A stretch of 64,000 nucleotides of DNA from Paraglaciecola sp. L1A13. GTDB taxonomy: Bacteria > Pseudomonadota > Gammaproteobacteria > Enterobacterales > Alteromonadaceae. Shown in pieces: positions 3,605 through 6,691 of the stretch (the first letter of the stretch is position 1; each line of letters starts with the position of its first letter). Where the stretch lies: positions 4,278,001 through 4,342,000 of the forward strand of contig NZ_CP047024.1 in NCBI RefSeq assembly GCF_009796745.1. The letters are read 5' to 3'. A program made the position numbers and the translations under genes. Under the pieces are notes generated by a model, which was not told where the DNA came from, ran no database searches, and saw nothing but the letters and a program-made list of their open reading frames with translations.

Positions 3605-4120
3605 ATGTGCAAATCATTTATATCTTTGAGTCTGATAATGCGCTTTTTTATAGCCTGTTTTGTATTGTATTTGGCGAGCTATGCCAATAACGGATACGCG
3701 TCCGTTGCACCAAATTTCTCCCTTACGGTAAATTCCGTGCCGGTCGAGCTCAGTGAATTGAAAGGTAAAGTTGTTTATATAGACTTTTGGGCTTCTTGGT
3801 GTAAGCCCTGTCGACAGTCTTTTCCTTGGTTGAACGATATGCAGCAAAAATATGCCAAACAAGGCTTAGTTGTGGTCGCTGTCAATCTCGACACAGAAGC
3901 TGAATTAGTCAACGCATTTCTAGAAAAAATTCCAGCTAACTTTCCTATTGTTCTCGACCCTGATGGGGAAATCGCGCAGCGCTACGAGCTTATAGGTATG
4001 CCCAGTAGCTACTTAATCGCTAGAGACGGCAGTGTCCGCTTTAGTCACAAAGGCTTTTTCAGTGCCAAAAAATCGGCCTATGAACAACAACTTGTCAGCT
4101 TATTACAAGAATTGGAGTAA
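3605..4120 (+). CDS. TlpA-like periplasmic thiol-disulfide oxidoreductase
   Basis: This 171-residue protein has an N-terminal signal or anchor (residues ~8-32) and a thioredoxin fold with the active site W-A-S-W-C66-K-P-C69-R. This is the TlpA/ResA class, which reduces specific periplasmic disulfides. The cis-proline loop is seen as G-M-P-S-S-Y-L-I. An ATG at 3638 would shorten the signal by 11 residues and is also possible. It is the first gene of a tight run with the DUF4266 lipoprotein (5-base gap), the DUF3570 barrel and apbE. It probably serves that system, for example by keeping the C-terminal Cys-Gly-Cys of DUF4266 reduced. That role is inference; the enzyme class is clear. Confidence 0.88.
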   Translation: MCKSFISLSLIMRFFIACFVLYLASYANNGYASVAPNFSLTVNSVPVELSELKGKVVYIDFWASWCKPCRQSFPWLNDMQQKYAKQGLVVVAVNLDTEAELVNAFLEKIPANFPIVLDPDGEIAQRYELIGMPSSYLIARDGSVRFSHKGFFSAKKSAYEQQLVSLLQELE

Positions 4121-4125
4121 TCATT

Positions 4126-4365
4126 ATGCTTAGTAAACCTACTATTAATCGCTTGCTAGTCGCCTCAGCGCTAGTTGCTACTTTAGCTTTAAATGGCTGT
4201 GCCAACTTAGGCGTCAAGCCGTGGCAGCGCGACCTACTTGCCAAGGACGAAATGGCACTTGATGCCGAAGGCATCGATTTAGGATTAGATGACCATATTT
4301 ATTTTAGCAAAGAAGCCACTAGTGGTGGTCGTTCATTTGCTGGGGGGGGCTGCGGATGCAACTAA
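4126..4365 (+). CDS. DUF4266 lipoprotein with C-terminal Cys-Gly-Cys-Asn
   Basis: This is a 79-residue lipoprotein: the signal ends A-L-N-G-C25, a good lipobox. The mature part has the DUF4266 features V-K-P-W-Q-R near the N-terminus, L-D-D-H-I-Y-F-S-K-E-A in the middle, and a glycine-rich end G-G-G-C76-G-C78-N79. The family's function is not known to me. Two cysteines at the extreme C-terminus suggest a metal or redox role, and the adjacent TlpA-like protein fits that. GGAG lies about 8 bases before the ATG. An 8-G tract (4342-4349) encodes the glycines just before the cysteines. The last ten bases overlap the start of the DUF3570 gene, so the two are translationally coupled. Confidence 0.9.
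   Translation: MLSKPTINRLLVASALVATLALNGCANLGVKPWQRDLLAKDEMALDAEGIDLGLDDHIYFSKEATSGGRSFAGGGCGCN
4342..4349 (+). repeat. 8-base G homopolymer at the DUF4266/DUF3570 junction
   Basis: The tract lies inside the DUF4266 gene, 16 bases before its stop codon. Adding one G (or losing two) would replace the Cys-Gly-Cys ending and put DUF4266 in frame with the DUF3570 start at 4356, giving a single fused protein. G runs of this length can slip in replication. Whether this one does is unknown. Confidence 0.6.
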
Positions 4366-5651
4366 CTAAAAGTAAAAATCTTAGCGTGTCACTGGCAGCA
4401 GCAGCCTGCGCGCTTTTGAACGTTGGCGCACAAGCGGAAGAAACACCAGCAGAGGAATGGAAGTTCGATACGGCAATATTGTATTACGGTGAAACAGACC
4501 GAGTACAGCTTGCTGAAGGCGTATTCAACGCCAATAAAGACTTTGGCGATCAGCGCATATTTAATGGCAAAATTGCCATTGATACCCTTACTGGCGCATC
4601 AGCATCAGGCGCGGTTGCCCAGCAAGAAGCCCAAACATTCACGCGTCCTTCCGGAAATGGCCAATATGTGGTGAATCCAGAAGAAACACCCCTTGATGAC
4701 ACATTCCAAGATACCCGTGTGCAACTCAGTGCCCAGTGGACTCAGCCCCTATGGGAGAATATGACCGGCAGTACAGGGGTACATTTATCAAAAGAGTACG
4801 ACTACTTGTCGTTAGGTGTGAACGGTTCACTAGCGCGTGACTTTAATCAGAAAAATACCACTGTATCCGCTGGCGTCTCTTACCAGTACGACAGTATTGA
4901 TCCGGTTGGAGAAGCACCTGTTGGCCTATCCAGCATGGTGGTTGATACAGGTCAGTTTGCTGATGAAACATTATTTGATACCGCTTTCGATGCGACCCGT
5001 ACTACTGATAGCAAAGACAAAAATACGGTCGATTTACTGTTAGGTGTCACCCAAGTTATAAACCGACGCATGCTAATGCAGTTTAACTACAGCTATTCAG
5101 TTGCAGACGGTTATTTAACCGACCCCTACAAGTTATTAAGTGTGGTTAACAGTGAAGGGATCACCCAAGACATTCTGCACGAAAATCGCCCCGATAAGCG
5201 CACTAAACAAAGTTTTTATTGGCAGACCAAATATGCCTCTGATTACGGTATTGCGGATGTATCTTATCGCTATGCCACAGATGATTGGGATATTGATTCT
5301 CACACGTTTGATTCGAGATTCAGAGTGCAACTAACTGACAACAGTTACCTGCAACCGCACTTTCGTTATTACCAGCAAAGTGCTGCAGATTTTTATCAAC
5401 CGTTCTTAGTTGAGGGGTCGTTGTTGCCGTCAGTTGCCAGCGCTGATTATCGTTTAGGTGAAATGACGGCATATACCGTAGGCCTTAAATATGGGCAAAC
5501 TATGGACAATGGCCGAGAGTGGGCCATCAGATTGGAGTACTACCAACAGAGTCCTAAAAATGCAGGCTTCGACGAGCCAGGTGCACTTCAGGGCTTAGAT
5601 CTATACCCGAGCATTGATGCTGTCATCGCTCAGGTAAGCTATAGCTTTTAG
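4356..5651 (+). CDS. DUF3570 outer-membrane barrel protein with flavinylation-like motif
   Basis: This 431-residue protein has a signal peptide (cut near A-Q-A, residue ~27) and long amphipathic strands with aromatic residues. It ends in an outer-membrane barrel signature (QVSYSF). Internal stretches such as LMQFNYSYSVADGYLTDPY and the R-P-D-K-R-T-K-Q segment match my memory of the DUF3570 family. Residues 76-84, D-T-L-T-G-A-S-A-S, fit the ApbE recognition consensus D-x-x-[ST]-G-A-[TS]-x-[ST] seen in NqrB, NqrC and RnfG. Ser82 would be the FMN-carrying residue. apbE lies 98 bases downstream. The barrel and family are well supported; flavinylation is inference from motif plus context. Confidence 0.87.
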   Translation: MQLTKSKNLSVSLAAAACALLNVGAQAEETPAEEWKFDTAILYYGETDRVQLAEGVFNANKDFGDQRIFNGKIAIDTLTGASASGAVAQQEAQTFTRPSGNGQYVVNPEETPLDDTFQDTRVQLSAQWTQPLWENMTGSTGVHLSKEYDYLSLGVNGSLARDFNQKNTTVSAGVSYQYDSIDPVGEAPVGLSSMVVDTGQFADETLFDTAFDATRTTDSKDKNTVDLLLGVTQVINRRMLMQFNYSYSVADGYLTDPYKLLSVVNSEGITQDILHENRPDKRTKQSFYWQTKYASDYGIADVSYRYATDDWDIDSHTFDSRFRVQLTDNSYLQPHFRYYQQSAADFYQPFLVEGSLLPSVASADYRLGEMTAYTVGLKYGQTMDNGREWAIRLEYYQQSPKNAGFDEPGALQGLDLYPSIDAVIAQVSYSF

Positions 5652-5749
5652 CGCTAGTATTTCATAATGAATTTGGCTCAGGGTATACTGTCTGCTATAT
5701 GTTTACTTACTTTAGCAATGATAGAACTGCCAACTAAGGTGAGACAGTC

Positions 5750-6691
5750 TTGAGCCAAATCCCAACGTTATTCTCAAAAGGTGACTATTTTCACGGTCAC
5801 TTTTTTTGCATGGCTAGTCCATGTGAGCTGTTAATTGAAACCCAAGATCAGTTATTCGCCAATCATCTTCTTCAGCAAGTAGTTGCACAGACTAAACGTA
5901 TCGAACAAAAATACAGTCGCTATATTGCCGGTAATCTTGTTGATCGAATAAACCACAGCAATAACAGTTGGGTGCAAATAGACCAAGAAACCCACAGGTT
6001 ACTGGCATTCGCGCAAACCTGCTTTGAGCTCAGCGATGGCATGTTCGATTTAACATCTGGCGCACTGCGAAAAATATGGGACTTTACCGGTAAAGGACAG
6101 TTTCCAAGGCCAGAACAAGTCGCTAATATAATAAAACACATCGGCTGGCAGCATATAGAATTTACCGAACAACATATTCGTTTACCCTCTGGTTTCGAAT
6201 TAGATTTTGGTGGTATAGGCAAAGAATACGCAGTGGATGCTGCGGCCAAGCTTTGTACTGAACTTGCGCCTACTGTTTCAACATTGGTTAATTTCGGCGG
6301 CGATATTCAAGTCACTCAGCCCAGACGCCATCATGCTTATTGGCAAGTCGGTATTGAGAGCCCTCAGCTTATAAATGCCTCTCAACAAGTAGTGCCCTGC
6401 CAGCAAACAGAAAACGCTGACCAAGATACTCACGCTATGGTAAAGATAGCCTCAGGTGGCTTAGCCACAAGTGGTGACGCTCGACGCTTTATTATTCACA
6501 ACAACATACGCTATAGCCATATTCTAAACCCCAAAACAGGTTACCCTGTAACCGGTGCCCCGCGCTCAGTGACAGTCGCAACAGACTTTTGCATTCAATC
6601 CGGCATGATAGCGACCATGGCCTTACTTCAAGGGAGCGAAGCCGAACATTTTCTACAAGCCCAACAACAAAAGCATTGGTGTTACTGGTAG
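5750..6691 (+). CDS. apbE: FAD:protein FMN transferase
   Basis: The enzyme attaches FMN from FAD to Thr or Ser of target proteins outside the cytoplasmic membrane. The 313 residues carry the family hallmarks: F-F-C-M-A-S-P-C-E near the start, G-G-I-G-K-E-Y-A-V-D, N-F-G-G-D-I, T-S-G-D-A-R-R-F and H-I-L-N-P-K-T-G-Y-P, which hold the FAD and Mg sites. The start is a TTG at 5750 preceded by AAGGTGA at 8 bases; no ATG gives a full N-terminus. No classic signal peptide is visible, so export would need another route or a poorly recognisable leader. It ends the tlpA/DUF4266/DUF3570 cluster. No NqrC or RnfG lies nearby, so DUF3570 is the likely substrate. Confidence 0.9.
   Translation: MSQIPTLFSKGDYFHGHFFCMASPCELLIETQDQLFANHLLQQVVAQTKRIEQKYSRYIAGNLVDRINHSNNSWVQIDQETHRLLAFAQTCFELSDGMFDLTSGALRKIWDFTGKGQFPRPEQVANIIKHIGWQHIEFTEQHIRLPSGFELDFGGIGKEYAVDAAAKLCTELAPTVSTLVNFGGDIQVTQPRRHHAYWQVGIESPQLINASQQVVPCQQTENADQDTHAMVKIASGGLATSGDARRFIIHNNIRYSHILNPKTGYPVTGAPRSVTVATDFCIQSGMIATMALLQGSEAEHFLQAQQQKHWCYW

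Follow-up and report, generated by a model that had tools for sequence, protein, structure and literature searches.

A leaderless ApbE with an altered metal site accompanies a one-site DUF3570 protein in Paraglaciecola and may flavinylate it before export

The window analyzed here, a 64,000-nucleotide stretch of the Paraglaciecola sp. L1A13 genome (NZ_CP047024.1, forward strand, positions 4,278,001 to 4,342,000), contains four co-oriented genes that encode, in this order, a TlpA-like protein, a DUF4266 lipoprotein, a DUF3570 protein, and an enzyme of the ApbE family (Table 1). A preliminary description of this DNA had placed an ApbE target motif, a candidate attachment site for flavin mononucleotide (FMN), near the start of the DUF3570 protein, and had listed apbE, a TlpA-like CxxC protein, and a DUF4266 lipoprotein as its neighbors; the motif was confirmed, with Ser82 as the predicted acceptor, and Pfam matches agreed with the gene content. 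We found that the ApbE of this cluster lacks a signal peptide and has Gly in place of a Mg-binding Asp, and we consider here how such an enzyme may act on an exported protein. The reading frames of DUF4266 and DUF3570 overlap by 10 nt (4356-4365), the first base of the DUF3570 ATG being the third base of the Gly codon that separates two Cys codons, which suggests coupled translation. The genome, a single contig of 4.97 Mb, has one DUF3570 match and two ApbEs, the second being of the lipoprotein type and adjoining an nqrF-like gene. Its sole PF02683 (DsbD-type) match lies far off (C1:137068), and none lies in the cluster. The top NCBIfam match of the TlpA-like protein was ResA, at a score under that family's own cut-off.

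Table 1 Features of the DUF3570-apbE cluster (positions in the window)
Feature	Position	Strand	Basis or remark
TlpA/ResA-like thiol-disulfide protein, exported	3605..4120	+	WASWCKPCR; Pfam Redoxin 8e-25, AhpC-TSA 1e-24
DUF4266 small lipoprotein	4126..4365	+	Pfam DUF4266 4e-21; lipobox LNGC; tail GGGCGCN
DUF3570 protein of 431 residues, predicted to lie in the outer membrane and to carry FMN	4356..5651	+	Pfam DUF3570 1.7e-171, 571 bits
N-terminal leader of DUF3570, MQLTKSKNLSVSLAAAACALLNVGAQA	within 4356..5651	+	
ApbE target motif DTLTGASAS, DUF3570 residues 76-84	4581..4607	+	predicted acceptor Ser82 = 4599-4601
G-A-V following Ser84 (S-G-A-V)	4608..4616	+	acceptor place without Ser/Thr
ApbE-family enzyme, TTG start, without signal peptide	5750..6691	+	Pfam ApbE 1.3e-61
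Gly157-Lys158-Glu159 of the cluster ApbE	6218..6226	+	canonical Ala-Lys-Gly (FmnB Ala187 to Gly189); alignment to solved ApbEs
His257 of the cluster ApbE, conserved active-site His (FmnB His273)	6518..6520	+	alignment; role of the His from PMC8906456
Gly285 of the cluster ApbE, at the Mg-binding Asp position (FmnB Asp301)	6602..6604	+	alignment

The full motif, D-x-x-[ST]-G-A-[ST]-x-[ST], arose in 0.055% of 20,000 shuffles of the window DUF3570 and the bare core [ST]GA[ST] in 6.2% of them; conservation is a stronger argument than this rarity. Thus, in an alignment of 78 rows, comprising the window protein, 53 of the best 120 of 4519 database matches, and 24 C-type proteins (types as given below), Gly80 and Ala81 were invariant, residue 82 was Ser in 76 rows and Thr in 2, and residue 76 was Asp in 54/54 window-like rows and, at the first motif, Glu in 24/24 C-type rows. 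The closest protein among the best 120 matches was that of Paraglaciecola sp. 20A4 (97%). For a wider sample, 274 genomes of the gammaproteobacterial class were searched; 71 had a DUF3570 match, and 92 DUF3570 places were taken and typed by motif as A (the window type, 35), B (35), C (7), or untyped (15), fragment matches such as that in G076 being left out. The strict core was present in 28 of the 35 A-type places, the other seven reading TGSS (3), SGSS, TGST, TGPS, and IGAS; because SGSS also stands beside a window-type ApbE (L052), it does not by itself denote a broken site. The window protein has one strict motif only, and the same one-site arrangement was found in 61 of 63 A-type proteins, a further [ST]GA[ST] 4-35 residues downstream occurring in the remaining two. 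Two strict motifs spaced by 19-22 residues were found in 77/80 loci of a larger C-type set (80 loci retained of 465). The S-G-A-V that follows the window motif was considered as a second flavin site and rejected, its acceptor place holding no Ser or Thr.

The absence of a leader from the cluster ApbE, which belongs to a family in which an N-terminal signal or lipobox is usual though not universal, was examined by scoring a leader wherever the mean Kyte-Doolittle value over 12 residues was at least 1.9, the stretch before the ApbE domain being read back to the in-frame stop with no start codon assumed. By this cut-off, a leader was found in only one of 128 ApbE frames from DUF3570 loci (1/27 for the window and its relatives, 0/33 for loci from the 274 genomes, and 0/68 for the larger C-type set), as against 30/30 canonical and 5/5 secreted-type control records. 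Counted among the 128 frames are that of the window, some fragments, and two or more genes that fall in two sets (L072 = L155; L077 = L196). The canonical controls consist of the best-scoring PF02424 matches and the second ApbE of this genome, and the secreted-type controls are five ApbEs from DUF3570 loci (three B, two untyped), the 35 records representing 34 genes with one in both groups (L089 = L262). In the sole passing frame from a DUF3570 locus (L147), the hydrophobic stretch lies far upstream of the domain. Moreover, in 41 of the 68 ApbEs of the larger C-type set the domain begins fewer than 20 residues after the upstream in-frame stop, and an uncharged run of at least 13 residues was present in 30/30 canonical ApbEs. 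None of 240 ApbE homologues with gene-caller starts (best 120 of 7915 and best 120 of 7505 matches, chosen by sequence irrespective of a DUF3570 neighbor) passed the cut-off. Many of these leaderless homologues (P0121-P0360) are labeled 'thiamine biosynthesis lipoprotein'. Close to its N-terminus, the cluster ApbE reads GHFFCMASPCE. A frameshifted leader, suggested by a hydrophobic out-of-frame stretch from about position 5667, was rejected, as the relatives are likewise without a leader.

The divergence of this enzyme extends to its metal site. In FmnB, Mg is bound by Asp301, Ser304, and Ala187, with Thr305 in addition when adenosine triphosphate (ATP) is present (PMC8906456). Alignment of the window ApbE to solved ApbEs including FmnB placed Gly285 at Asp301, Ala288 at Ser304, followed by Thr289, Gly157 at Ala187, and Glu159 at Gly189; the active-site His is kept (His257). 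The Ser304 position is likewise Ala in 25/30 canonical ApbEs. The Asp301 alignment column was Gly in 118/118 linked ApbEs covering it and Asp in 35/35 control records, and the Gly189 column was Glu in 119/120 linked ApbEs covering it (Lys in the other one) and Gly in 30/30 canonical ApbEs. Both exchanges recurred in the 240 homologues, with Gly at the Asp301 column in 240/240 and Glu at the Gly189 column in 238/238 covered. Glu159, which stands two residues from the position of the Ala metal ligand, may replace the lost Asp as a metal ligand. In the sets of a second phylum (G333, Myxococcota) and of G332, the ApbE covers the loop in ten genomes with C-type DUF3570 and reads K-E there, and in three more such genomes it does not cover the loop; four of the ApbEs in these sets have at most 15 residues before the domain, most others lying in long open frames with uncertain starts. 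A quick tree built from 120 ApbE domains, in which 32 of 64 C-type rows were kept, separated 85 linked ApbEs exactly from 35 others, with a value of 100 in the Shimodaira-Hasegawa-like approximate likelihood ratio test (SH-aLRT) and a branch of 0.67. The linked ApbEs group in a single branch, separate from the canonical ApbEs sampled, and are termed here a divergent ApbE subfamily, not canonical ApbE, because the Mg-binding Asp is missing.

This subfamily was found to co-occur with the motif-bearing DUF3570 proteins. An ApbE lay within the fetched stretch at 25/35 A, 6/7 C, 3/35 B, and 3/15 untyped places. Across whole genomes, a window-type ApbE, called at E <= 1e-30, was present in 42/274 and a motif-bearing A- or C-type DUF3570 in 40/274, with 39 genomes having both, 1 only the DUF3570, 3 only the ApbE, and 231 neither (Fisher p 1e-42, uncorrected for relatedness). 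These counts include two genomes added by hand, G191 (L073, reading DLITGASPIG) and G093 (L079, with VGAS in a fragment); the corresponding numbers without them are 37, 1, 5, and 231. G052 has A-type DUF3570 without a window-type ApbE; its two A copies read TGPS and SGSS, its untyped third DUF3570 (L090) reads DSISGAS, and its sole ApbE is canonical. In G056 and G193 (L320, L321), a leaderless ApbE lies just downstream of a porin-like frame of 332 residues without [ST]GA[ST], and G034 (L319) holds a leaderless ApbE, yet no DUF3570 match was found anywhere in that genome.

The B-type clusters share with the window cluster the thioredoxin-like protein, a DUF4266 protein ending in GGGCGCN, and DUF3570. 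Their motif place reads mostly D-S-I-S-S-A-S, Gly being mostly replaced by Ser, and at seven loci S-G-A-S follows D-x-[IVM]; five of the seven genomes with such loci have no window-type ApbE. An initial statement that subfamily B has no apbE was corrected, as 3/35 have one within 5 kb and further ApbEs lie 6-30 kb off. All of 13 B loci picked for a nearby ApbE (L264-L276) hold one, and the three B-cluster ApbEs checked for a leader (L081, L086, L089) all have it. Unlike the window cluster, the trio at L264-L276 stands beside proteins of about 750-1000 residues with 2-3 CXXCH. A frame with at least two CXXCH was present in the fetched stretch at 30/35 B, 2/35 A, 4/7 C, and 4/15 untyped places, some of these six-frame hits perhaps being due to chance, and the one CXXCH protein that was scanned (from L265) matched PF18582, hydrazine synthase alpha (2e-18). 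Small SH3/OMP-like and TPR proteins are also encoded at L265. The module may thus come in a flavin and a heme version; modular use of flavins and cytochromes has been proposed in a section of PMC8238504 that, as available, does not mention DUF3570. The GGGCGCN end of DUF4266 (4342-4362 in the window), or a near variant, sometimes with Y, was found in nearly all relatives listed; its presence also where DUF3570 has no Gly-Ala motif shows it to be independent of the flavin site.

Several features suggest that the window DUF3570 is an exported outer-membrane barrel, namely its leader, a C-terminal Phe found in 54/54 window-like rows, and a second Pfam match, in one homologue (P0099), to PF01103, which we take to be the Omp85/surface-antigen barrel. 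An uncharged leader-like run of at least 13 residues was present in 137/142 motif-bearing DUF3570s. The leader is weak, with a median hydrophobicity of 1.7-2.0; weakly hydrophobic leaders suit post-translational export. A sequence search of the PDB with DUF3570 gave no related entry, and two crude periodicity tests had no power, one giving 27 strand-like windows against 25.2 +/- 2.2 in shuffles and the other a z of 1.5 for DUF3570, as against -1.4 for a lipocalin intended as positive control. The leader (4356-4440 and relatives) is conserved in sequence, often as LA-x-ATC-x-LL with a Cys in A-type and ALT-x-x-ALALPG in C-type proteins. Signal peptides usually conserve character only, and a role of this sequence in recognition is possible. 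Some DUF3570 frames of about 870-980 residues (L033, L041, L287-L289) have an extra C-terminal region as well as DTWSGATP motifs and are possibly fused proteins.

The preliminary description had taken DUF3570 for an ApbE substrate and had expected its motif to be conserved and to co-occur with apbE among homologues; the comparisons above largely bear out this expectation, while the outer-membrane barrel that it also proposed stays a prediction. It was unsure whether such a system had been described, and the core idea is in fact already published: the DUF3570 of C. luteolum was flavinylated, as judged by ultraviolet-imaged gels, when E. coli expressed it together with its cognate ApbE, and Ser-to-Ala replacement at both of its two motifs was required to abolish flavinylation (Meheust et al. 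2021, PMC8238504). The same study counted 316 clusters of ApbE, DUF3570, a thioredoxin-like protein, and DUF4266 without DsbD, a variant with DsbD also existing. The missing leader and the changed metal site of the ApbE had escaped the preliminary description, and no mention of either was found in the available text of PMC8238504, where 'barrel' has 0 uses and 'outer membrane' 1; DUF3570 has 0 occurrences in that of PMC11334425. In the open-licence PMC literature, DUF3570 and DUF4266 are named in one paper each, and no leaderless ApbE with an exported substrate was found, judging by titles and abstract openings. This leaderless, metal-site-changed kind of ApbE was not found in print by these searches.

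It appears modestly probable, from these sequence comparisons, that the leaderless ApbE loads FMN onto Ser82 in the cytoplasm before export, in a one-site DUF3570 system. The divergent ApbE would stay in the cytoplasm and place FMN on Ser82 of the unfolded DUF3570 preprotein, an acceptor that would be reachable early because it lies only about 50 residues behind the leader. The FMN-loaded preprotein would then undergo export and insertion into the outer membrane, where its flavin would relay electrons that probably come from the TlpA-like protein and from the thiols of the DUF4266 CGC tail, following a proposal in PMC8238504. A number of points weigh against this scheme. The location and the transfer activity of the ApbE are predicted, and the FMN-bearing chain would have to pass through the export channel. 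Alanine swaps at the Mg-coordinating residues of FmnB greatly reduce or abolish activity (PMC8906456). The only tested DUF3570-linked ApbE, that of C. luteolum, may have a signal peptide; in PMC8238504, a signal-peptide-truncated ApbE was used for a DUF2271 pair, and the pair from C. luteolum was prepared by a 'similar cloning strategy'. The leader cut-off was passed by DUF3570s in only 14/27, 9/35, and 17/80 cases, and so has false negatives because the leader of DUF3570 is itself weak; 7/120 linked ApbEs do have an uncharged run of at least 13 residues, and the canonical controls were not a random draw. Finally, G034, G056, and G193 hold a window-type ApbE without a motif-bearing DUF3570.

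The canonical lipoprotein ApbE on the nqrF side might instead flavinylate DUF3570 in the periplasm, leaving the cluster ApbE to bind or hydrolyze flavin adenine dinucleotide (FAD) or to modify a cytoplasmic substrate. Such a division of labor would suit both the presence of that enzyme in this genome and the loss of the Mg-binding Asp from the cluster ApbE, but is unlikely, since the leaderless ApbE accompanies the motif-bearing DUF3570 nearly one to one, even where the pair lies on separate contigs (G006, G003, and G137), is the only ApbE in G091 (100% complete) and G006 (96%), and in PMC8238504 co-expression with the cognate ApbE worked. The leaderless ApbE is also the only one in G038 (81% complete). 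Alternatively, the cluster ApbE could get to the periplasm without a classical signal peptide and act there like its relatives, most characterized ApbEs being periplasmic (review PMC12052999) and both the substrate and the operon partners being exported (the thioredoxin-like proteins passed the leader cut-off in 26/27, 25/28, and 60/68 cases and the DUF4266 proteins in 26/27, 31/32, and 76/78). This route is quite improbable in view of the lack of an obvious N-terminal signal, often with fewer than 20 residues before the domain, and of the Cys content, which averages 4.47, 4.88, and 4.33 per domain in the three linked groups as against 0.33 in canonical ApbEs; the five secreted-type ApbEs have 0.8. 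That the motif is mainly structural and the window DUF3570 carries no flavin would fit the D-S-I-S-S-A-S of most B-type proteins and the five S-G-A-S genomes without a window-type ApbE, but is very improbable given that motif-bearing A- and C-type DUF3570s track the ApbE subfamily and that the C. luteolum protein is flavinylated with both Ser residues needed (PMC8238504).

Returning to cytoplasmic loading, the broader proposal that an entire ApbE subfamily has become cytoplasmic, has rebuilt its metal site by losing the Asp of one loop and gaining a Glu in the other, and loads FMN onto outer-membrane preproteins before export is put forward tentatively, its chances falling just short of even. 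In published descriptions, extracytosolic flavinylation takes place in the periplasm and requires that FAD be available outside the cytoplasm. If cytoplasmic loading holds, a covalent redox cofactor could be loaded before secretion, and FAD in the periplasm would not be needed. The Asp-to-Gly and Gly-to-Glu exchanges would allow metal binding by ApbE to be tested directly, and the one- and two-site DUF3570s, together with their relatives next to heme proteins, would provide material on how electrons cross the outer membrane with flavin instead of heme.

Compared with known systems, the window cluster represents, in a one-site form, the type of DUF3570 flavinylation cluster already published: it has the same four families together and the same motif as the clusters of Meheust et al., whereas the C. 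luteolum DUF3570 has two modified sites and the window protein one. The available text of that study does not require two motifs in all such proteins. Canonical ApbE and FmnB share with the cluster ApbE the PF02424 domain, the active-site His, and the Thr of the metal loop, but the sampled canonical enzymes have a leader, few Cys residues, the Asp, and Ala-Lys-Gly, in contrast to no leader, many Cys residues, Gly, and Gly-Lys-Glu in the cluster enzyme. A flavin transferase without a signal peptide is also known in the cytosolic ApbE of Klebsiella pneumoniae (review PMC12052999), whose substrate is a soluble fumarate reductase, whereas the predicted substrate of the window ApbE is exported.

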